Of a stretch of 64,000 nucleotides of DNA, positions 783 to 34,381 are shown piece after piece. Below the pieces are notes generated by a model. The model saw only the letters and a list, made by a program, of their open reading frames with translations, was not told the DNA's origin and searched no databases. A program made the translations under genes and the position numbers. The DNA is from Halorubrum sp. 2020YC2 (GTDB lineage Archaea; Halobacteriota; Halobacteria; Halobacteriales; Haloferacaceae), in NCBI RefSeq assembly GCF_018623055.1, contig NZ_CP076019.1, forward strand, positions 2,790,001-2,854,000, in the 5' to 3' direction. The first letter of the stretch is position 1. The number at the start of each line of letters is the position of its first letter.

Positions 783-1958
783 GTGGGCGCTGACGGCGGC
801 TCCGCCCCCGAGTCGGACGCCACGAGCGACGACGCCGACGCGCCGGTCGTCGCCGGCTTCTTCTCCGGCTGCGGCGGCCTCGACTTGGGCTTCGAGCGGG
901 CCGGCTTCGACGTGGCCCTCGGGAGCGACCAGTGGGAGCCGGCCGCGGAGACGTACCGCCGCAACTTCTCGGACGTGGAGTTCATCGAGGAGGATGTCCG
1001 CGGGCTCGACGCCCCGGCGATCCGCGAGACCGTCGAGCGCGCCGGCTACGAACCCGACGGGATCGACGTGGTGATCGGCGGCCCGCCGTGTCAGGGGTTC
1101 AGCCGGCTCAACAACGAGCAGATCGAGCTGGACGAGATGGAGAAGGACCGGCGGAACACCCTCTTCGAGGAGTTCCTCCGGGTCGTCTCCGTCCTCGAAC
1201 CGCAGCTGGTGTTGATGGAGAACGTCCGCGACCTGATCAACCGGCAGACCAGCGACGACCGGTACGTGAAAGACCTCATCGTCGACGAGTTCGCGGCCCA
1301 CGGCTACAAGTGCGAGTACCGCGTGCTGGAGGCCGAGCAGTACGGCGTTCCCCAGAAGCGCCGCCGGATCTTCTTCGTGGGGACCGACCGCGACGTGCCG
1401 ATCCGCTTCCCCGAGCCGACGACCCCGGAGGGGAACTGGCGAACCGCGGGCGAGGCGCTCGCGGACGCGAGCGACGACCTCCCGAACATGAGGTACGCGA
1501 ACACCGGAGAGAAGACGCTCGAACGCATCCGGCACGTCCCGCCTGGCGGCTACTACCGAGACCTCCCGGACCGCCTGAAGACGAAAAAGTACCAGTGCGA
1601 CTGCGAGGACACCGACACCTGCCCCCACGAGCCGGAAATAGTCAAGCGGTACGGGACGTACCTCCGCCGGCTTGACCCCGACGAGCCCTCGCTAACGGTG
1701 AGCACGAACGTCTTCATCCACCCGACCGAGGACCGCTACCTCACCCCCCGCGAGATGGCACGGCTCCAGACGTTCCCGGACGAGTTCGCGTTCGAGGGGA
1801 CGAAGACCGACGTGATGAAACAGATCGGCAACGCGGTCCCGGTCCGACTCGGCGAGGAATTGGCGAACCAACTCCGGGAGTACTTCCCCGAGATCCGGGA
1901 CGCGCCCCCCGCCGACCCCGACGTGTACGAACAGCAGTCGCTTACGGATCTGGCCTGA
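783..1958 (+). CDS. DNA (cytosine-5-)-methyltransferase, host-like composition
   Basis: Transfers a methyl group from SAM to C5 of cytosine in DNA. The C5-methylase motifs appear in order: FSGCGGLDLGF (motif I, SAM binding), GGPPCQGFS (motif IV, catalytic Cys), MENVRD (motif VI), YGVPQKRRRIFF (motif VIII) and QIGNAVPV (motif X). The start is uncertain. The reading frame is open back to a GTG at 702, but a TATA-like GTTTTTAT sits at 707-714. I prefer GTG 783, which follows a GAGGTGG at 771-777; GTG 774 or 777 are alternatives. Base composition matches the host, unlike the second methylase at 2208. It may be a solitary methylase or an older partner of the neighbouring island. The recognition site cannot be read from the sequence. 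Confidence 0.9.
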   Translation: MGADGGSAPESDATSDDADAPVVAGFFSGCGGLDLGFERAGFDVALGSDQWEPAAETYRRNFSDVEFIEEDVRGLDAPAIRETVERAGYEPDGIDVVIGGPPCQGFSRLNNEQIELDEMEKDRRNTLFEEFLRVVSVLEPQLVLMENVRDLINRQTSDDRYVKDLIVDEFAAHGYKCEYRVLEAEQYGVPQKRRRIFFVGTDRDVPIRFPEPTTPEGNWRTAGEALADASDDLPNMRYANTGEKTLERIRHVPPGGYYRDLPDRLKTKKYQCDCEDTDTCPHEPEIVKRYGTYLRRLDPDEPSLTVSTNVFIHPTEDRYLTPREMARLQTFPDEFAFEGTKTDVMKQIGNAVPVRLGEELANQLREYFPEIRDAPPADPDVYEQQSLTDLA

Positions 1959-2207
1959 GCGCGATATCGTTTTGAATCACACACATACTGCTCTTTTCGC
2001 AGTCTCTGGGCGTCGCTGTACTGCTTGTCTGCCGACCCAAACACCCGCCTCCCCATCTACGCCGAAAAATTCTCATCCTCAGCTATCCACATATGGAATA
2101 ACCACTTGCGGTACTGCTGTGTGAGCGAAACTGTCAAGCAACCCCACTCGCTTACACAAGTATGATGATGTCTCCTTTGAACAATCAGGACGCACACGAT
2201 CTAACGT
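1959..2207. other. Composition boundary at left edge of restriction-modification island
   Basis: This 249-base gap holds no convincing gene. Base composition falls here from the host's high GC to clearly AT-richer DNA, and stays lower until about 5750. I looked for a copy of the tRNA-Pro 3' end, which would mark an attachment site, and found none. A promoter for the downstream methylase-fusion gene is expected here; AT-rich stretches near 2155-2185 are possible but not decisive. Confidence 0.5.
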
Positions 2208-4043
2208 ATGTCTGACGTTTGGGATCCCGAATCCGAGATCGAGGAAAACCGTCATAACTGGTCGGGTGAGCCGAAGCACTTCGAACCCGTAGACGCCGCA
2301 CAACGAGACGAAAGCGAGCCTAAAGCTATCGACCTCTTTTGCGGTCCCGGCGGGATCTCTGCCGGACTGGAGTGGGCGGGTTTTGAACCCGTTCTCGGTG
2401 TGGACATTCACGAGCCTTCAGTCGAGACATACCGGCGGAACCACCCCGGCGCACACGCTATTCTCGGAGATATCCGGCGGATCAACAAGCGGAACGATGA
2501 CGATCGGGATATCTTCGAGGTCATCGAAAGCAATAGTTCGGTTGAGTCAACGCTGCTCGCGGAAGTCGCAGAAGAGGCGCTCGCCGGCGACGAGCTCAGC
2601 CTACTCACGGCGGGAATCCCCTGTCAAGGGTTCTCGATCGCCAACCGAAAGCAGCACGACGAGGACGAGAGGAACTATCTCTTTGAGGAATTCATCCGCG
2701 GTGTCCGACTGCTAAATCCGAAGCATATCCTCATCGAAAACGTCTCAACGATGAAATCCGCCGACGACGGTGGATTTGTCGACGCTATCGAGGAGTGTCT
2801 CGATATACTCGGATACAGCGTCGACCATCGAATTCTCAACGCCGCTGATTTCGGGGTTCCACAGAAGCGTCGCCGTCTCTTTTTCCTCGGGACACGAACA
2901 GATGCGCCTCTTATATGGCCCGAACCGACACACGAGGGTACCCCGCGGTCGACCGAGGACGCGCTTGCGGACCTTCCGCCGCTCGACGCCGACGAGGAGT
3001 CCGCCACTTACGATCGGGAGGGCAATCCCACGGAGTTCCAGCGCCTCATGCGGGAGGGAGTGAAATCCGAGGACGACCTCTGGAACCACAAAGCGCCGAA
3101 CCACCGTCAGACGACTATCGATAGGGTCAAAGAGACGGACCCGGGAGAGCCAATGTACGATCGCTTTAGACAGCGAATACGGCTCCACCCGGATGAGCCC
3201 GGGCCCACAATCATCGCAGGTGGAATTCGCCCGCAGTTCCAATACGGACACTTTTCTCAATCTCGTGGACTGTCCGTCCGAGAGCGGGCTCGGCTACAGT
3301 CGTTCCCCGACCAGTTTAAATTCGAGGGCGGAACCGTCCAAGGACGGGTTCAGACAGGGATGGCCGTCCCCCCACTCCTCGCGAAGCATATCGGTGAAGC
3401 GATCCGAACGTCTCAGGATGCCGAACTGTTCGTTCGCACCGTCCTCGATGAGTACGGGGACAAGACCGCTTCCCGCCCGTGGAGGAGCACGGATTCGACC
3501 CCATACGAGGTTCTCGTCGGAGAGATACTCGAGAGGGACACTCCGTCTGAAACGGTAGAAGCCGTGTTCTCGAAGTTCATCGAAAAATATCCGGACGAAA
3601 GGTCGCTCACGGAGGCGGATGTCAGTCAAGTCACGGACCTTCTAGCGGAGTTCGGCGTCGACGGAACGGTCGCCCGGAATCTCCGAGATATCATGAGCCA
3701 AGTGATGTTCTCGGGGGTTCCCGAAAGCGAAGGAGAACTCACTAAATTACCCCATATCGACCGAGCTATCGCCTATACGATCCTCTGTTTCGGTCACGGG
3801 AAGCGCTGTCCAGCCGTTGACGAGAACGTCACACGCATCTACGAGCGGTTCTTTGACATTTCCGTTAGCGATCCCTTCCAAGAAGACGACCATCTCTGGG
3901 ACTTCGCGAGAGCGATACTTCCGGAAGACGACTATCTGCGATACAACCGGGCGGTCATCGAGTTCGCGTCGGACTACTGCGTAGACGATTCCCTCGACTC
4001 TACCGGCGGTCGGGTCTCCTCACTATCACACCTCCTCGGCTGA
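2208..4043 (+). CDS. C5 DNA methyltransferase fused to HhH-GPD (EndoIII/MutY-like) glycosylase domain
   Basis: Residues about 38-400 form a C5-cytosine methyltransferase: IDLFCGPGG (motif I, about 41-49), GIPCQGFS (motif IV, catalytic Cys139), LIENVS (motif VI), FGVPQKRRRLFFLG (motif VIII), RARLQSFPDQF (motif IX) and TGMAVPP (motif X, with Met where Asn is usual). Residues about 420-590 then look like a HhH-GPD base-excision glycosylase: LPHIDRAIAY matches the hairpin region and AVDENV keeps the catalytic Asp. The lysine of bifunctional EndoIII is replaced by Ala, and the four-Cys iron-sulphur loop is missing, so any activity would be monofunctional. Inference: the second domain repairs the T:G mismatches that arise when the enzyme's own 5-methylcytosine deaminates. 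It begins the operon with the two nuclease-like genes. Low GC and relaxed codon use suggest transfer. Confidence 0.88.
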   Translation: MSDVWDPESEIEENRHNWSGEPKHFEPVDAAQRDESEPKAIDLFCGPGGISAGLEWAGFEPVLGVDIHEPSVETYRRNHPGAHAILGDIRRINKRNDDDRDIFEVIESNSSVESTLLAEVAEEALAGDELSLLTAGIPCQGFSIANRKQHDEDERNYLFEEFIRGVRLLNPKHILIENVSTMKSADDGGFVDAIEECLDILGYSVDHRILNAADFGVPQKRRRLFFLGTRTDAPLIWPEPTHEGTPRSTEDALADLPPLDADEESATYDREGNPTEFQRLMREGVKSEDDLWNHKAPNHRQTTIDRVKETDPGEPMYDRFRQRIRLHPDEPGPTIIAGGIRPQFQYGHFSQSRGLSVRERARLQSFPDQFKFEGGTVQGRVQTGMAVPPLLAKHIGEAIRTSQDAELFVRTVLDEYGDKTASRPWRSTDSTPYEVLVGEILERDTPSETVEAVFSKFIEKYPDERSLTEADVSQVTDLLAEFGVDGTVARNLRDIMSQVMFSGVPESEGELTKLPHIDRAIAYTILCFGHGKRCPAVDENVTRIYERFFDISVSDPFQEDDHLWDFARAILPEDDYLRYNRAVIEFASDYCVDDSLDSTGGRVSSLSHLLG

Positions 4044-16104: not shown

Positions 16105-17982
16105 ATGTCCGATCCAGCAAACGACGAATCGGTCGGAAGTACGAAGCGACGCAAGCTGCTCAGTCTCCTCGGCGGCGGCGCCGCGGTGACTCTCGCCGGC
16201 TGTTCTGGCGATCAAGGGTCCTCCGACGGCGGTGACGGCGAGGACGGCGAAGACGGCGGTGACGGCGAGGATGGCGGCGACGGCGAGGACGGTGGCGACA
16301 GCGGCCCTACCTTCGCCGACCAGGCACAGGCCGCGTGGGGGCGTGCGGTGAACAACCCGCTTCCGGAAGACGAGGAGCTCCGTCAGGAGGCGTACGTCGA
16401 GATGGAGGAGGCGGTCCGCGACGACATGGCCCTCCTCCCGCTGTACCACGGCCTCACCGAGCTGTTCTGGTACGACTACGTCGACGTCCCGCTGACCGGC
16501 GCGCTCGGTAAACACTGGCAGCAGCTCAACACGACGGAGGTCGAGGGGAAGGACAGCCTCAACCTCATCAACAGCACCTTCGACGAGCTGGACCCGATCA
16601 TGTCGACCGACACGGCGTCGTCGATCGTCATCACCCAGATCTACGAGAACCTCACCGCGTTCCCGAACGGGGTTCCCGAAATCGAAAACCAGCTGCTGGA
16701 GGAGTACGAGGTCTCCGAGGACGGGACCACGTGGACGTTCACGCTCAAAGAGGACGTCCAGTTCCACGGGGGAGAGACCGTGACCGCACAGGACGTGAAG
16801 TACTCCTGGCGGCGCACCGTCGAGTCGGGTAACTCCGAGCGCGCGACCTTCACCCTCAACCAGCCCACCGGGCTCGGGATCGAGGTCGAGACGGACGACG
16901 AGGGCGACCCGGTGCCCGACTCGCTCGCGATCGAGGTCGTCGACGATCAGACCCTAGAGATCCAGCTCTCCGGCCCGAACCCGGACGTGCTCGACATCAT
17001 CGCGTACAGCAGCTTCGCGGTGCTTCCCGAGGGGTACGTCGGAGATATCGAGGGGTACGACGGCGAGGTCTCGCACGACGAGTTCATCACTAACGTGGCG
17101 AACGGGACCGGTCCGTTCGAGCTCGACGAGTTCAACGTCGACGAGGACGTCAGCGTCGTCCGCAACGACGACTACTGGGGCGAGACCGCGAGCGTCGAGG
17201 CCGTCAACTGGGAGATCATCGAGGACGACCAGGCCCGGTGGACGTACGCGCTCGAACAGAACGCCGACCGGTTCGAGATCCCGACGTTCGCCTACGAGCA
17301 GGACGCGATCAGCGCCGAGACCGACGACCGCGGCCGCGAGGTCGGGACGTACGGTCCGGCCGGCGACCTCGAAGAGGAGGTGAACTACCTCGGGGTCTCG
17401 GAGATCAGTACGTACTACTTCGGGTTCAACATCTCGAACACGCCGCGGGCGGCCCGACAGGCGGTCGCGTACGCCCTCAACAAGGAACAGATCGTCCAGC
17501 AGGTGTTCGCGGGCCGCGGTACGCCGGCGTACAGCTTCCTCCCGCCGGCGATCTGGCCCACCGGGCAGGACGGGTACCAGTCGTTCCTCGACGACTACCC
17601 GTACAGCCTCGGCGAGAACGACTCGCAGGGCGCGCAGACGGTTCTCAGCGAGGCGGACTACACGCAGGACAGCCCGTTCGAGATGACGCTCACCACCTAC
17701 GAGAGCGAGGTGTTCCAGACCGCAGGGGAGCTCGTCCGCGACCTGCTGTCCGGCACCGGACTCGACCTGTCGCTGGAGACGTCGCAGTTCTCGACGCTCC
17801 AGAGCCGCGGCGAGGACGGTGACCTACAGATGTACTCGCTCGGATGGATCTGGAGCTGGCCCGCCGTCCCGTACGGCATGTTCCAGCTCGAGCCGCGCAA
17901 CACCGACACCTCGACGATGCCGGGCGAGACCAACGGGTTCTACCTCGACTGGCAGACGAACCTCGAGGAAGAAGCCGAGTAA
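16105..17982 (+). CDS. Tat-exported lipoprotein, SBP_bac_5 family, apparently circularly permuted
   Basis: Substrate-binding protein of a dipeptide/oligopeptide-type importer, anchored outside the membrane. TKRRKLLSLLGGG is a twin-arginine signal, and LAGC puts the lipid Cys at residue 33; an Asp/Gly-rich tether follows (34-68). The oddity is the domain order. Residues about 70-147 (QAQAAWGRAVNNP, YVEMEEAVRDDMALLPLYHG) are the segment that normally ends these proteins. The usual N-terminal start comes only afterwards (STFDELDPIMSTDTASS, about 158-174), and the protein stops at DWQTNLEEEAE, just where that segment would continue. So the last ~78 residues have moved to the front. It heads the operon with two permeases and two ATPases. 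Confidence 0.9.
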   Translation: MSDPANDESVGSTKRRKLLSLLGGGAAVTLAGCSGDQGSSDGGDGEDGEDGGDGEDGGDGEDGGDSGPTFADQAQAAWGRAVNNPLPEDEELRQEAYVEMEEAVRDDMALLPLYHGLTELFWYDYVDVPLTGALGKHWQQLNTTEVEGKDSLNLINSTFDELDPIMSTDTASSIVITQIYENLTAFPNGVPEIENQLLEEYEVSEDGTTWTFTLKEDVQFHGGETVTAQDVKYSWRRTVESGNSERATFTLNQPTGLGIEVETDDEGDPVPDSLAIEVVDDQTLEIQLSGPNPDVLDIIAYSSFAVLPEGYVGDIEGYDGEVSHDEFITNVANGTGPFELDEFNVDEDVSVVRNDDYWGETASVEAVNWEIIEDDQARWTYALEQNADRFEIPTFAYEQDAISAETDDRGREVGTYGPAGDLEEEVNYLGVSEISTYYFGFNISNTPRAARQAVAYALNKEQIVQQVFAGRGTPAYSFLPPAIWPTGQDGYQSFLDDYPYSLGENDSQGAQTVLSEADYTQDSPFEMTLTTYESEVFQTAGELVRDLLSGTGLDLSLETSQFSTLQSRGEDGDLQMYSLGWIWSWPAVPYGMFQLEPRNTDTSTMPGETNGFYLDWQTNLEEEAE

Positions 17983-18088: not shown

Positions 18089-19159
18089 ATGAGTCGCTGG
18101 GAGTACTTCGTCAAACGACTGCTGCTCACGGTCCCTGTGCTGTTTCTGGTGTTGAGCTTCCTGTTCGTCATGCTCCGGCTGGGACCGATCGACCCGGTCG
18201 CGGCCCGGCTCGGCCCACAGGCGACCGGCGGCGACAGACAGGCGATCCGCGAGCGCCTGGGTCTCGACGACCCGCTCTGGGAGCAGTACGTGGACTTCAT
18301 CACTAGCTTCCTGACGTTCGATCTCGGCCAGTCGTGGGTCGTCCAGGCCGGCCGTCCGATAACCGAGATCGTGCTCAACGCGGCCCCGGCGACCCTCTGG
18401 CTCGGGTTCTGGGCGATCCTGTTGCCGCTCTTCATCGGGATCCCACTCGGCTTCTACGCCGGGCTCAACCCGAACTCGCTGGGCGACTACACCGCCTCGC
18501 TCGGCGGGATCCTCTGGCAGGCGCTCCCGAACTTCTGGCTGTCCGTCATCGCGCTGGCGACGCTCCGCCAGACCCGAAACGGGGGCGGTCCGTTCGGGTT
18601 CGACTGGTACTCGCTCGGTCCCGACTTCCTGACGCGGAACCTCAGCATCACCGGGACACCGAATCTCACGTGGTTCTCGACGACCGACATACTGTTTTTC
18701 CCGGTGCCGTACATCTCCGACTGGACGGCGCTCGCGATCGACATCAAGCTAATCTTACCCCCCGCGCTCATCCTCGGGTCGGCGTCGATGGCCGCAGAGC
18801 TCCGGATCGGTCGGACGGCGATGCTCGAGACGGTCAACGCGAACTTCGTCGAGACGGCGCGTGCGAAGGGGTTGAGCGAACGCGTGATCGTCTGGAAACA
18901 CATCTTCCGGAACGCCCTGATTCCGCTCCTCCCGGTCATCACGAGCGAGGCGTTCCTCCTCATCGGCGGCTCCGTGATCGTCGAGCAGATCTTCAACATC
19001 AACGGACTCGGTCGGATCTTCTTCCAGTCGCTGACGAGCGGCGACATCCCGATGGCGGGGGCGCTGCTTTTCATCTTCACTCTGATCATCCTGTTTTTGA
19101 ACATCCTTCAGGACTTCCTGTACACGATTATTGACCCGCGTGTGGGGTACGACCAATGA
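18089..19159 (+). CDS. ABC transporter permease, DppB type
   Basis: First membrane subunit of the importer. About six membrane helices are visible in 356 aa, beginning LLLTVPVLFLVLSFLFVM. The EAA-type loop that contacts the ATPases is in ETARAKGLSERVIVWKHIFRNA. The C-terminal DFLYTIIDPRVGY is typical of the DppB family. The stop overlaps the start of the next gene (ATGA), so translation is coupled. A 106-base gap separates it from the binding-protein gene; I see no terminator there. Confidence 0.92.
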   Translation: MSRWEYFVKRLLLTVPVLFLVLSFLFVMLRLGPIDPVAARLGPQATGGDRQAIRERLGLDDPLWEQYVDFITSFLTFDLGQSWVVQAGRPITEIVLNAAPATLWLGFWAILLPLFIGIPLGFYAGLNPNSLGDYTASLGGILWQALPNFWLSVIALATLRQTRNGGGPFGFDWYSLGPDFLTRNLSITGTPNLTWFSTTDILFFPVPYISDWTALAIDIKLILPPALILGSASMAAELRIGRTAMLETVNANFVETARAKGLSERVIVWKHIFRNALIPLLPVITSEAFLLIGGSVIVEQIFNINGLGRIFFQSLTSGDIPMAGALLFIFTLIILFLNILQDFLYTIIDPRVGYDQ

Positions 19160-20895
19160 GCACGACACAGATCGACGACGGCCTCGACGACCCGGACCGC
19201 GAGAACAGACCGTTCAGCGATCGGCTCCGTCGGAATCCGCGGCCGGCGCTGGTGTGGTTCGGCGTTTTCGGACTGTTGCTCTTGCTCGAGATCGGCCGCG
19301 TGTTCGCCGGCGTGAGCACGCTGTTCGGCGTCGTCGGCTTCGTCGTCAACGTGGTGGCGATGACCCCCGCATCGATCGGCGGCAACGTCTCCGGAACGCT
19401 GGGCCCGATCGCCGGCGGGGTCGTGACGGCGCTCGTCGCGGTCGCGCTCGCCTTCGCGCTCGTGGTCCCGTTCTCCGAGTACGTGCCGGACAGGGCGGTC
19501 GACGTCCTCGGACTGGACCTGACGCGCCGCGGCCACCGCTGGGCGAAGCGGGCGGAGCTGACGTTCGCGCTCGTCGCGGTCGGCGCGCTGATCGCGTACA
19601 CCCCGGTCGGCGGTGCGTTCTCAGCGTTCGTCGCTGCGGTCACCGGCGGCGTCGAGACGCTCTCGACGACCCTGCCGTCTCTCACGAGCCGTGAGCTGAT
19701 CCCGAACACGGGTCATCGCCTCCCCGGCGGCGGCTGGGACGACACGTTCCTCGGTCTCTCGCCCGCGGTCGCGTGGGCGATTCGCACCGGTCTCGTCTTC
19801 GCGTACGCGCTGACGGTCCTCGCGTGGCTGTGGCGCGGCTTCGAGACGTACCGAACTCACTACCGCAGCGCGGACTGGACGCCGACGGACGACACGATCC
19901 GGCGCTTCCGGAACAACTACTGGGGGCTGTTCGGGTTCGCCATCGTGTTCCTCTTCGTCGTGCTGGCGCTGTGGGCGCCCGCGGTCAGCCCGGTCGAGGC
20001 GGAGCACAACATCTACGAGCCGAACGCGAACACCTTCGAGTACCTGAGCGAAGACGGCGAGGTGACGGAGGTTAACCACGTGTTCGCGAACCTCGAAAGC
20101 CGCTCGGACGGGCAGACCACCGTCGGTCCGCTGAGCTACGACGACTACGGGAGGTGGGCGCCGCTCGGCACCACCAACCGGGGGCAAGACATGATGACAC
20201 ACCTCTCGTACGGGGCCCGAACGTCGCTGACAATCGGGGCCACGGCGATCGGCATCGGCGCGCTGATCGCGGTCGTGCTCTCCCTCCTCTCCGCGTATTA
20301 CAAGGGGATCACCGACATCGCGTCGGTCGTGGCGAGCGACACCATACAGGCGATCCCGGCGCTGCTCTTAGTCATGCTCGTCTCGGTCATCTTCCAAGAC
20401 GCCAATCACCCGATCGCACAGCCGCTAGACGGCGGACTACTGCTGGCGTTGATCTTCGCGTTCGCGTACTGGCCCGGCATGTGGCGCGCGATCCGCGGCC
20501 CGTCGCTTCAGGTCTCGGAACAGGAGTGGGTCGACGCCGCCAAGAGCTACGGACAGACGCCCCTGCGGACGATGCGGAAGCACATGGCTCCGTACATCGC
20601 CGGCTACATCCTGATCTACGCGTCGCTGCTCATCGGCGGGGTGATCATCTCGACGGCCGCCCTGACGTTCCTCGGGCTGGGGATCAACCCGCCGACGCCG
20701 GAGTGGGGACGCCTCATCAACGGCGGGCAGTCGTACGTCGCGACCTCCTCGTGGCACGTCGCCACCGTGCCCGGGATCGCGATCGTCCTCGTCGTCGTCG
20801 CGTTCAACGCCCTCGGTGACGCCCTCCGTGACGCGATCGATCCGGAGGCCGACGTCGACGAGAGCGAGGCGGCGACCACCGGAGGTGGTGCCTGA
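19156..20895 (+). CDS. ABC transporter permease, DppC type, with long N-terminal membrane extension
   Basis: Second membrane subunit. The C-terminal half (about residues 240-560) is a normal DppC permease: TTNRGQDMMTHLSYGARTS, the EAA loop WVDAAKSYGQTPLRTMRKH, and FNALGDALRDAIDPEAD at the end. At 579 aa it is nearly twice the common bacterial length, because residues about 1-240 add several extra hydrophobic helices (for example FGVFGLLLLLEIG and ALVAVALAFALVVPF). The extra helices may interact with the unusual binding protein; this is a guess. It overlaps both neighbours by 1-4 bases. Confidence 0.9.
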   Translation: MSTTQIDDGLDDPDRENRPFSDRLRRNPRPALVWFGVFGLLLLLEIGRVFAGVSTLFGVVGFVVNVVAMTPASIGGNVSGTLGPIAGGVVTALVAVALAFALVVPFSEYVPDRAVDVLGLDLTRRGHRWAKRAELTFALVAVGALIAYTPVGGAFSAFVAAVTGGVETLSTTLPSLTSRELIPNTGHRLPGGGWDDTFLGLSPAVAWAIRTGLVFAYALTVLAWLWRGFETYRTHYRSADWTPTDDTIRRFRNNYWGLFGFAIVFLFVVLALWAPAVSPVEAEHNIYEPNANTFEYLSEDGEVTEVNHVFANLESRSDGQTTVGPLSYDDYGRWAPLGTTNRGQDMMTHLSYGARTSLTIGATAIGIGALIAVVLSLLSAYYKGITDIASVVASDTIQAIPALLLVMLVSVIFQDANHPIAQPLDGGLLLALIFAFAYWPGMWRAIRGPSLQVSEQEWVDAAKSYGQTPLRTMRKHMAPYIAGYILIYASLLIGGVIISTAALTFLGLGINPPTPEWGRLINGGQSYVATSSWHVATVPGIAIVLVVVAFNALGDALRDAIDPEADVDESEAATTGGGA

Positions 20896-22268
20896 TGCCG
20901 ACCGACGAGCGCTCCGGCCCGACCGGCACGTCCGGGTCGACCGCCGCGGGTGCGGAGGGAGACGGCGATCCGCTCATCGACGTCCGAAACCTCCAGACGA
21001 CCTTCTTCACCGACAAGGAGACGATCCGCGCGGTCGACGAGATCAGCTTCACGATCAACCCCGGCGAGACGGTCGGTATCGTCGGCGAGTCCGGCAGCGG
21101 TAAAAGCGTCACCGCGCGGTCGCTGATGGGGCTGATCGAGTCGCCCGGCCGCGTGCTGGAGGGGAGCAGCGTCCGGTACCGCGACGTCGCGACCGTCCGG
21201 GAGTTCGCCGGCGAGTACCCGGGGCGGACGGTCGCCGTCGACGACCTCGCGGCGAGGTACGACCCGGACGCGGTGTTCGACCGGACGGACGCGACGCCGC
21301 GGGAGTTCGGGTACGCCGCTCCCGAGGACGTCCCATTGGTCGACGTCCTCGCCGCCGGCTACGGCGACGAGGTCGGCCTCACGGACGGCGACGACTGCGT
21401 GTTCGTTCTGGAGGGCGATCCGGACGACCCGAGTGCCATCCGCCGCGGCTTCGTCGAGCTCACGCGCGTCTCGGGCGAGGTCCAACGGAAGATGCGGGGC
21501 GGCCGCATCTCGATGGTGTTTCAGGACCCGCTCACGAGCCTCAATCCGGTGTACACGGTCGGCAACCAGATCAAGGAGGCGCTCCGGCTCCATCAGGGTA
21601 TCACGGGTCAGGAGGCCACCCAGGAGGCGGCCGACCTCCTCGAAGCGGTGGGGATCCCCGACGCCCGGCGTCGGGTCAACGAGTACCCCCACCAGTTCTC
21701 CGGCGGGATGCGCCAGCGCGCCGTGATCGCGATGGCGCTCGCCTGCGAGCCGGACATGCTGATCTGCGACGAGCCGACGACCGCGCTCGACGTGACGATA
21801 CAGGCGCAGATCCTCGACCTGATAGCTGACATTCAGGAGACCCGCGACGTCGCGGTGATGTTCATCACCCACGACATGGGCGTGATAGCCGACGTCTCCG
21901 ACCGGGTGAACGTGATGTACGCCGGTGAAATCGTCGAGTCCGCCCCCGTCGAACCGCTGTTCGCGGACCCGAAACACCCGTACACCAACGGGCTGCTCGA
22001 GTCCATTCCGGGCGGACAGGTCGGCGAAAAGCTCACGACGATCGAGGGCAGCGTGCCGACCCCGAACGAGGAGCCGACGTACTGCCGGTTCGCGCCGCGG
22101 TGTCCCAAGGCGTTCGACGAGTGCGAGGCGGTACACCCCGAACCGGTGCCGATCGACGGCGACACCGACGACCACACGGCGGCGTGCCTCCTCTATCCGG
22201 AGGACGAATCGACCGAGGCGGCGATCGCCCGTCATCGCGGGCGAACGGAGCGAGGTGACAGTAAATGA
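20895..22268 (+). CDS. ABC transporter ATP-binding protein, DppD type
   Basis: First ATPase of the importer. Walker A is GESGSGKS, the Q-loop is MVFQDPLTSLNP, the signature is FSGGMRQR, Walker B is MLICDEPTTALD, and the C-terminal oligopeptide-transporter extension carries the Cys set CRFAPRCP...C. Roughly 110 residues, more than usual, lie between Walker A and the Q-loop (about residues 75-190), including ATVREFAGEYPG and VFVLEGDPDDPS. The ATG overlaps the previous stop (TGATG). Confidence 0.92.
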   Translation: MPTDERSGPTGTSGSTAAGAEGDGDPLIDVRNLQTTFFTDKETIRAVDEISFTINPGETVGIVGESGSGKSVTARSLMGLIESPGRVLEGSSVRYRDVATVREFAGEYPGRTVAVDDLAARYDPDAVFDRTDATPREFGYAAPEDVPLVDVLAAGYGDEVGLTDGDDCVFVLEGDPDDPSAIRRGFVELTRVSGEVQRKMRGGRISMVFQDPLTSLNPVYTVGNQIKEALRLHQGITGQEATQEAADLLEAVGIPDARRRVNEYPHQFSGGMRQRAVIAMALACEPDMLICDEPTTALDVTIQAQILDLIADIQETRDVAVMFITHDMGVIADVSDRVNVMYAGEIVESAPVEPLFADPKHPYTNGLLESIPGGQVGEKLTTIEGSVPTPNEEPTYCRFAPRCPKAFDECEAVHPEPVPIDGDTDDHTAACLLYPEDESTEAAIARHRGRTERGDSK

Positions 22269-23625
22269 GTTCGAACACGGTTTCGACGGCGACTGAGACG
22301 ACCGAGCCGGAACCAGAGCCGATGGTGAAGGTGCGGGATCTGAAAACGTACTACGACAGCGGCGGCCTCTTCGACGACCGTCCGGTGAAGGCGGTCGACG
22401 GCGTCAGCTTCGACATCCACCGCGGCGAGACGCTGGGTCTCGTCGGCGAGTCCGGCTGCGGGAAGACGACGCTCGGCCGGACGCTGATCCAGCTCGAAGA
22501 CGCCACGGACGGGCAGATCCTCTTCGACGACACCGACATCACGACGCTCCGAGGCGACCAGCTGTACGAGTGGCGCCAGAACGCCCAGATGGTGTTCCAG
22601 GACCCCGACTCCAGCCTCAACGACCGGATGACGATCGGCGAGATCGTTCGGGAGCCGCTCGACGTCCACGAGTGGAAGACGCCGGCCGAGCGGCGAGAGC
22701 GCGTGAAGAACCTGCTCGATCAGGTCGGTCTCGAGGCCGAGCACTACTACCGGTACCCGCACCAGTTCTCCGGCGGACAGCGTCAGCGGGTCGGGATCGC
22801 CCGCACGCTCGCGCTCAACCCCGAGTTCATCGTGCTCGACGAGCCGGTGTCGGCGCTCGACGTCTCCGTCCAAGCCGAGATCATCAACCTGCTCGAAGAG
22901 CTCCAAGCGGAGTTCGATCTCACGTACCTGTTCATCGCGCACGACCTCTCCGTGGTGCGTCACATCTGCGACCGGGTCGCCGTGATGTATCTCGGTAACA
23001 TCATGGAGATCGGCCCCACCGAGGAGCTGTTCACCGACCCGGCGAACCCGTACACCCACGCTCTACTGTCGGCGATCCCGAAGCCGGACCCGACCGAGCG
23101 CCGCGATCGAATCACGCTCCACGGGACGCCGCCGAACCCGCGGTACCCCCGAGCGGCTGTCCGTTCAGCACGCGCTGTCCGGCGCGTATCCGACCGTCGG
23201 ACCACGAGGACCTCGACGACGAGATCTGGGACGGGATCAACTCGTTCCGCGAGATCCTCCGCGAGCGAATGCGAGCGAGCCGCTCGATACGCGAACGGGT
23301 CCGCGAGCGGCTCGGCTGGGAGACCCGGTTCGCGACGATCGGAGAGACGTACGAGGAGCTGTTCGGTGACCTCGACGTTCCCCCCGGCGTCGAGGAAGTG
23401 CTCACGGCGGTCGCGGACACCGCGCGGGATCACGACGAACAGGCCGCGATCGACGAGCTCAACGCGGAGTTCGGGAGCGTCTGTGACGGGGTCGACCCGG
23501 AGGGCGGCTCCGACTCGGTCGAGCCCGACTACTTCACCGTCAGCGAGAGCGGCCGCCTGAGCTACTGTCACCGGCACGACGACGCGCACCGAGAGACGAG
23601 CGCCGTCCTCGACGACCGGGCCTGA
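22265..23625 (+). CDS. ABC transporter ATP-binding protein, DppF type, interrupted by a -1 frameshift
   Basis: Second ATPase. Walker [11 protein letters not shown]-loop [12 protein letters not shown], signature FSGGQRQR and Walker [13 protein letters not shown] are intact in the first frame. After GTPPNPRYP the frame breaks at a run of five Cs (23146-23150). With one extra base the sequence would continue as [10 protein letters not shown], the conserved Cys motif of this family. The rest ([17 protein letters not shown] to YCHRHDD) is present in the shifted frame to the TGA at 23625. Read straight on, the first frame ends at 23560 with an Arg/Ser-rich nonsense tail. The nucleotide-binding core is complete, so a truncated product may still work. 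A sequencing error, a recent mutation and programmed slippage are all possible. Confidence 0.85.
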
Positions 23626-32353: not shown

Positions 32354-34381
32354 ATGACGCGACCGATCAGTCGACGGACGGCGCTCGCCGGTCTCGGCCT
32401 CGCGGCCGGCAGCGCCGGCTGTCTCGGTCGAGCGGAGAACATCGCCGGACGGGACCCCCACACGCAGCTGACCCTCGAGATCAACGCCCTCCCCGCAGAC
32501 GCCGACCCGAACGGGATCCGCATCGCGAGACAGCTCGAAGAGCACCTGACCGCGGTCGGCATCGACGTCCAACTCAACACCGTCGGACAGACGGACCTCT
32601 GGCGGAAGGTCCTCATCAACCAGAACTTCGACGTCTACGTCGGCCAGTTCGTGGAGACGGAGCCGTTCGACCCCGACGCCCTGTACGGCCTGACCCACTC
32701 GAAGTTCGTCGCTGAGTCCGGGTGGCAGAACCCCTTCGGGCTCACGGAGATTGCGGTCGACGACCTCCTCGACCGACAGCGTCGGGCCGCCGGCGCCGAG
32801 CGCTCCGACGCCGTCGACGCGTTACAGGAGACGGTGTGCGAGCTTCAGCCCTTCTCCGTCGTCGCGTTCCCCGACGCGCTCACCGCCGTCCGGAAGAGCC
32901 GCTTCGAGGGGTGGACAGAGGACCGCCAGCCGCTCTCGGTCACCGGGCTGCTCGAACTCGACGGCGTCGCCTCCGACGGCGGGTCGGGGAGCGGCGCCCC
33001 GGGAGGCGACGGCTCCGGAACCGACGGGTCGGTGGACGACAACGAGACTGACGGGAACGACTCGACGGACGGCGACGATTCGGCGTACGACAACGAGACG
33101 GACGGGAACGACTCGACGGACGGCGACGATTCGGCGGACGGCACTGGGTCGACGGACGGCAACGTGACCAGCGGGGACGCGGGCGCCGACGGCGCGGACG
33201 TCCTCCGGATCGTGACGACCGACGGCCGGATCACCGAGAACTGGAACCCGATCGCCGCGGAGTATCGGAAGCACGGCACGTTTACGGGGCTGCTGTACGA
33301 CCCGCTCGTCCGTGCGGACGGCGACTCCGCCGTTCCGTGGCTGGCGGCCGGCTGGGAGCGGGTCGACGACGAGACGCTCGACGTCTCGCTCCGCGACGCC
33401 CGGTGGCACGACGGCGAACCCGTGACGGCGGCCGACGTCGCGTTCACCTACGAGTTCCTCCGAGACACGTCGCTGGGGAGCGTCGAGACGGCGGTGCCGG
33501 CCCCGCGGTTCCGCGGGCGTAGCTCCCTCGTCGAGGACGAGCGGGCCCTCGACGACGCGACGGTCCGGCTCACCGTGCCCGCCGTCAACGAGACGGTCGC
33601 CCTCCGGGCGCTTCAGGTGCCGATCCTCCCGGAACACGTCTGGTCGGACCGGACCGACCCGGCGACGATCGCCGGCTTCGAGTTCGACTTCGAGACGACC
33701 GAGGCGATCGTCTCGAACAACCCCGAGCCGGTCGGCAGCGGGCCGCTGCGCTTCGTCGAGGCGACCGCGGGGGAGTCGGTCGTCCTCGAACGCAACCCCG
33801 ACCACTTCCTCGTTCGCTCGGCACCGGCGGGCGACGCGGACGCGTCCGACGAGACGGCGGCCCCCCGAGCGGGGATCCCGTCTCGGTACCACGGGAAGCC
33901 GGCGTTCGACCGGCTCCAGGTGGACGTGTTGCCCTCGGACATCTCCGCCGTGGAGTCGGTCGCCGAGGGGCTCGCGGACGCGACCGCCTCGAACCTCGGC
34001 CCGGCGGCGGTCCCGCGGATCGGCCGCTCGACCGACGCCCGACTCGTGAGCGGTCGGTCGGCGGCGTTCTACCACGTCGGGTACAACGCCCGGCGGAGCC
34101 CGCTGTCGAACCCCCGGTTCCGGACGGTGATCGCGCGGCTGATCGACAAGTCCGCGGTCGTCGACGACGCCTTCGAGGGATACGCGCAGGCGGCCGCCTC
34201 CCCGCTCGCGGCGTCGCCGGAGGCGGTCCCCGACTCGCTGGCGTGGACCGACGGCACCGACCCCGTCCACCCGTTCTTCGACGACGGGGGGGAACTCGAC
34301 GTCGGGGGCGCCCGCGCGGCGCTGCGGGATATCGGGTATCGCTACGACGACGAGGGACGGCTGCTCGCCCGGGGGCAATGA
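32354..34381 (+). CDS. Tat lipoprotein, SBP_bac_5 family, circularly permuted with long linker
   Basis: Second peptide-type binding protein, 675 aa. SRRTALAGLGLAAGSAGC gives a Tat signal and lipid Cys23. Residues about 35-203 (LTLEINALPADADPNG, RQLEEHLTAVGIDVQL, FDVYVGQFVETEPFDPDALY, GLTEIAVDDLLDRQRR) are what normally forms the C-terminal lobe. A Ser/Gly/Asp/Thr-rich linker with repeated NETDGNDSTDGDDS units follows (about 206-280). Only then comes the normal N-terminal lobe (NWNPIAAEYRKHGTFTGLLY, WHDGEPVTAADVAFTY). The protein ends in LRDIGYRYDDEGRLLARG, which normally leads into the first block. So the two lobes are swapped in order. No permease or ATPase is adjacent; the PAP2 gene is translationally coupled. 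Confidence 0.85.
   Translation: MTRPISRRTALAGLGLAAGSAGCLGRAENIAGRDPHTQLTLEINALPADADPNGIRIARQLEEHLTAVGIDVQLNTVGQTDLWRKVLINQNFDVYVGQFVETEPFDPDALYGLTHSKFVAESGWQNPFGLTEIAVDDLLDRQRRAAGAERSDAVDALQETVCELQPFSVVAFPDALTAVRKSRFEGWTEDRQPLSVTGLLELDGVASDGGSGSGAPGGDGSGTDGSVDDNETDGNDSTDGDDSAYDNETDGNDSTDGDDSADGTGSTDGNVTSGDAGADGADVLRIVTTDGRITENWNPIAAEYRKHGTFTGLLYDPLVRADGDSAVPWLAAGWERVDDETLDVSLRDARWHDGEPVTAADVAFTYEFLRDTSLGSVETAVPAPRFRGRSSLVEDERALDDATVRLTVPAVNETVALRALQVPILPEHVWSDRTDPATIAGFEFDFETTEAIVSNNPEPVGSGPLRFVEATAGESVVLERNPDHFLVRSAPAGDADASDETAAPRAGIPSRYHGKPAFDRLQVDVLPSDISAVESVAEGLADATASNLGPAAVPRIGRSTDARLVSGRSAAFYHVGYNARRSPLSNPRFRTVIARLIDKSAVVDDAFEGYAQAAASPLAASPEAVPDSLAWTDGTDPVHPFFDDGGELDVGGARAALRDIGYRYDDEGRLLARGQ

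Follow-up and report, generated by a model that had tools for sequence, protein, structure and literature searches.

An apparent circular permutant of a Dpp/Opp-type receptor in Halorubrum, and recurrent changes of chain order among SBP_bac_5 proteins

The importer operon and its receptor gene

The window, i.e. the whole stretch of 64,000 nucleotides of Halorubrum sp. 2020YC2 DNA analysed here, carries a gene for a binding lipoprotein, followed on the same strand by four importer genes. The features of this locus are as follows.

16105..17982, + strand: permuted SBP_bac_5 lipoprotein of 625 aa, order A-B-C, in a single open frame
16105..16203, + strand: Tat-type signal with R15 and R16, and lipobox LAGC ending at Cys33 (read from the sequence)
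16204..16311, + strand: acidic Asp/Gly/Glu-rich linker, residues 34-69, about 36 residues (read from the sequence)
16312..16545, + strand: segment A, residues 70-147, N-terminal here and C-terminal in canonical relatives (segment and profile comparison)
16546..17562, + strand: segment B, residues 148-486, N-terminal in canonical relatives (segment and profile comparison)
17563..17979, + strand: segment C, residues 487-625, with the new C-terminus DWQTNLEEEAE (segment and profile comparison)
18089..19159, + strand: DppB/NikB-type permease
19156..20895, + strand: DppC-type permease with a long N-terminal extension
20895..22268, + strand: DppD/OppD-type ATPase
22265..23560, + strand: DppF-type ATPase, its frame disturbed near the 3' end

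The protein is predicted to be exported by the Tat pathway and anchored by a lipid, as is typical of haloarchaeal receptors, and R15, R16 and C33 are invariant across 13 aligned homologues. Its match to Pfam SBP_bac_5 (PF00496) spans residues 192-593 and scores 227.8 bits against a curated cut-off of 32.4. This match and the operon of DppB, C, D and F-type genes are what it has in common with DppA, OppA and NikA, and they bear out the original prediction of an SBP_bac_5-type binding protein in an ABC importer operon.

The neighbourhood is conserved. Twelve loci of a named collection were compared, and the gene order SBP-B-C-D-F is complete in ten of them, the contigs of the remaining 2 ending early. 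In the DppC-type permease the matched permease domain is preceded by an N-terminal extension of ~240-300 residues, which is conserved in relatives too. The dppF gene looks frameshifted in the window: the usual C-terminal part lies in a separate frame, as ORF 23269-23625 (gene region 22265-23625), while both parts are in a single frame in the eight relatives compared by coordinates (L044-L046 and L049-L053). The apparent frameshift reflects either a sequencing error or recent damage, and because of it the importer encoded here may be non-functional.

Segment order in the receptor

In canonical relatives the three segments run B-C-A, and in the window protein A-B-C. A profile HMM built exclusively from 54 canonically ordered proteins (HMM length 622) matched the window protein in two pieces, residues 147-620 corresponding to HMM positions 71-539 (656 bits) and residues 71-147 to positions 543-621 (77.7 bits, E 4.7e-25). 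The two pieces thus cover the circular order once, leaving a gap of 3 profile positions at the cut. E. coli DppA matches the same HMM as one collinear piece, and its canonical N-to-C order, which forms no part of the definition of PF00496, is absent from the window protein. The difference from DppA, OppA and NikA lies in their C-terminal ~78 residues: these are residues 70-147 here, moved to the front behind the anchor and linker, as had been anticipated. It had also been noted that the protein stops at DWQTNLEEEAE, where the moved segment would otherwise continue, and the open frame, the coordinates and the residues all agree with this.

Very few additional residues stand at the junction of the old N- and C-termini (...HWQQLNTTEVEG-KDSLNLINST...), and the new termini are located in the loop ahead of the helix QAQAAW, the cut aligning near residue 464 of the 535-residue E. 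coli DppA precursor. Column hydropathy of segment A correlates at 0.89 between the A-B-C and the B-C-A proteins. Judged by the chain itself, the protein thus qualifies as a circular permutant, with each segment present once, the circular order kept, the old termini joined and a single site of new termini. Duplication of segment A was considered and rejected, as a second A segment was found in 0 of 171 fully classified ORFs, which upholds the original choice of permutation over duplication. No remnant of segment A or of the parental arrangement was found in the flanks searched around the loci; apparent A matches outside the main ORFs came from these proteins themselves, each listed again with another locus id, apart from a weak match in L223 (13 bits).

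Distribution and recurrence of changed chain orders

Homologues were searched in 59 related genomes and 391 Halobacteria genomes. The A-B-C order of the window protein, in full length, was found in at least 44 of the 391 genomes, covering six family codes among the matches listed, with weak ones omitted. It was also found in 12/12 loci of the named collection; most of these come from Halorubrum, and a Haloferacaceae MAG, one Halovenus and one Halapricum are also among them. A scan of viral contigs yielded no further homologue. Classification of 206 distinct ORFs by segment profiles gave 48 A-B-C, 27 C-A-B and 96 B-C-A proteins, the last being chosen rows (54 at first, 96 after further retrieval) and no random sample, and 35 partial matches, which are partial or more distant binding proteins. 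A dppB-like permease lies downstream in 45/48 A-B-C loci (2 without, 1 with too little flank), in 27/27 C-A-B loci and in 70/96 B-C-A loci (25 without, 1 with too little flank). Relative to five relatives, dN/dS was 0.21-0.42 for segment A, 0.21-0.28 for B and 0.21-0.38 for C. The A-B-C order is therefore old and retained, under purifying selection.

The C-A-B order was met in 27 proteins, from 26/391 genomes and G052, which form one separate haloarchaeal clade with support 100/100 in a 70-row tree. Here the chain is cut between ...PPQVFPGGxxxYxxHWQGE and SYPYGxNE..., i.e. between segments B and C, and the N-terminus corresponds to residue ~487 of the window protein. These permutants (P0002, L134) resemble the window protein in their SBP subfamily, in the downstream permease and in the fusion of the canonical termini, but differ from it in the cut loop and in belonging to a distinct clade.

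A third cut, near Pfam position 275-298, puts Pfam positions ~288-366 first and ~2-290 last. It was found in haloarchaea, in a further group of archaea within the phylum (family code f21) and in Alphaproteobacteria, the reversed Pfam pairs being those of G000, G017, G095 (two), G323, G494, Nitratireductor (two), Ketogulonicigenium and Halalkalicoccus. Of these, the one in G000 is a second permuted gene of the window itself:

32354..34381, + strand: second permuted SBP_bac_5 protein, third cut site, with reversed Pfam pieces
32474-32701, + strand: its Pfam 288-363 piece (Pfam)
33332-34357, + strand: its Pfam 3-284 piece (Pfam)

A long Asp/Ser/Gly-rich stretch separates its reversed halves and would fit a linker retained from a tandem copy, although we offer this as a suggestion only. 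L220 and L223-L225 likewise show two Pfam stretches apiece. L239 (Nitratireductor), L240 (Ketogulonicigenium) and L241 are annotated single CDSs with permease genes next downstream, and their records read simply 'ABC transporter substrate-binding protein'. The third-cut permutants (L220, L224, L239, L240 and the protein of 32354-34381) share with the 16105-17982 protein the SBP_bac_5 domain in changed order, but have another cut and a distant sequence.

Two further proteins were noticed on the way. L032, from the same genome (G000:C1:402122-406090), is an SBP_bac_5 protein whose C-terminal Pfam match extends no further than profile position 282; it is probably of the third-cut type, as its N-terminus reads so, with only one Pfam stretch matched. 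L219 (G560; ORF 1506-3269, - strand) is an archaeal binding protein with C-segment likeness ahead of B, and it ends in a hydrophobic stretch followed by arginines, for which reason it is probably anchored at the opposite end. Streptomyces matches in two joined pieces also appeared permuted; the one that we checked proved collinear against the canonical HMM.

Permutation is thus more widespread and more recurrent in this family than was originally seen, with further cut sites, one of them inside the window.

The history of the A-B-C order was followed in a quick 134-row and a careful 70-row tree, with the segments rearranged into canonical order. Four changes of the A-B-C label are needed in both trees, of which the starred branches force 2 in the 134-row and 4 in the 70-row tree. 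A tree of segment B only, devoid of junction columns, needs five changes, 3 of them forced; support in its mixed group is weaker than in the full tree, and its deep backbone is weakly supported. A single A-B-C clade was rejected with AU p 5e-126, and with AU p 0.0026 without L112, for groups that in both cases had been defined once the order was known. L112 has the A-B-C order, yet it falls within the canonical rows and its segments have canonical proteins as their nearest matches, so that it represents a separate origin of the order. Conversely, L095 has the canonical order, but its identity to the permuted L080 is 74% in B, 79% in C and 78% in A. We considered whether a distant canonical gene had supplied its segment A through recombination; this is not supported, as all three segments are nearest to the same permuted rows; in L010 the nearest rows of segments C and A are mixed, and the case regarding recombination is less clear there. 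The A-B-C order has thus been gained or lost several times in haloarchaea, the trees requiring several independent changes of it.

Origin and meaning of the changed order

We consider the Halorubrum protein to be a true circular permutant of a Dpp/Opp-type receptor, Tat-exported, anchored at Cys33 and serving the downstream DppBCDF-like importer, with a probability of about 85%. That an assembly error, a pseudogene or chance likeness lies behind the order of the gene is hardly credible: nothing of the kind was found for the receptor gene itself, and although the neighbouring dppF does look frameshifted, the order is shared by at least 44 of the 391 genomes and by all 12 named loci, the moved segment has a highly significant profile match, and the gene is under purifying selection. 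The changes of order can be counted in more than one way. It is possible, at slightly less than even odds, that A-B-C arose once in its main clade and that L010, L095 and L105/L106 returned to the canonical order. This fewest-change reading takes few events, and these canonical proteins do nest inside or beside A-B-C rows, to which their segments are close. However, their C-termini resemble those of other canonical clades, so that retained ancestry with several gains fits equally, and the deep backbone is weakly supported.

Whether the recurrence reflects selection is a separate matter. We give an even chance to the view that changes of order are neutral, a long flexible linker making the position of the anchor irrelevant and permutants drifting in and out. 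Permuted and canonical relatives occupy similar operons, the linker is ~36 residues long, and the canonical L095 is 74-79% identical per segment to a permuted protein. Against this stands the stability of the order in a pure A-B-C clade of 38 proteins from several families (134-row tree) and in the C-A-B clade of 27 proteins; moreover at least three cut sites exist, none of them near the original termini, and this could also be a sign of selection. An adaptive permutation, in which moving the anchor to the other lobe would alter the contact of the cleft with the permease or lower the strain on the binding site, is conceivable but rather doubtful. It would account for independent recurrence within an anchored family, and PMC4990184 proposes the same idea for the unrelated permuted lipoprotein TpMglB-2. 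Neutrality appears to us at least as likely as adaptation.

Returning to the permutant itself, the most likely course would be a duplication or recombination of the anchored gene that placed the signal and the linker before segment A. The usual models of permutation, as given in PMC3320104, are duplication, in which the start and the stop are new, and fission with subsequent fusion; among the 171 classified ORFs and the flanks searched, we found no duplicated intermediate that would reveal the route. With a long acidic linker, and with original termini that lie close together, such re-ordering would be tolerable, which could explain its recurrence at several loops. Segment A presumably fills its canonical place in the fold, to judge from the sequence, and it is plausible that the nearness of the original termini lets the protein fold while its anchor is presented differently. 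AlphaFold2, with only 13 homologues, gave pLDDT 37.9 for the full protein and 34.9 for residues 69-625, both too low for a usable model. From the domain limits of DppA and OppA, we take all three cuts to lie probably in lobe II and the original termini in lobe I, in which case each cut would shift the anchor from lobe I to lobe II.

The best PDB sequence matches of the window protein are DppA/OppA/NikA-like, presumably a different cluster from the Type Ic / Cluster Bc of TpMglB-2. A natural permuted binding protein is indeed already known, in that different class: TpMglB-2 (Tp0684) is a circularly permuted glucose-binding lipoprotein of Type Ic / Cluster Bc, for which anchoring was raised as a possible reason (PMC4990184). 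It resembles the window protein in being a tethered receptor of an ABC importer that was circularly permuted in nature, but belongs to the Type I / Cluster B class, has another cut and, in the available text of that paper, appears as one permuted topology without repeated changes. Our literature search, with subscription papers largely outside its scope, found no published natural permutation within SBP_bac_5.

Natural circular permutations are usually regarded as old, single events. In the present family, chain order varies between close relatives (74-79% identical per segment), and the chain is cut at three different sites. The Pfam 'Middle' model creates an annotation blind spot here: it omits the C-terminal ~78 residues, and a permutation of the window type is consequently invisible to a Pfam scan. 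The natural pairs make the route and the cost of circular permutation directly testable, as well as the effect of relocating the lipid anchor on an ABC-importer receptor. Our broader proposal is tentative, and we put it somewhat below an even chance: in anchored SBP_bac_5 receptors, chain order would change repeatedly and reversibly, at three or more preferred cut loops of one lobe, with several gains and possible returns, in archaea and bacteria. If this is true, the order of the chain would evolve freely in this family and, in doing so, shift the lipid anchor between the lobes of the receptor.
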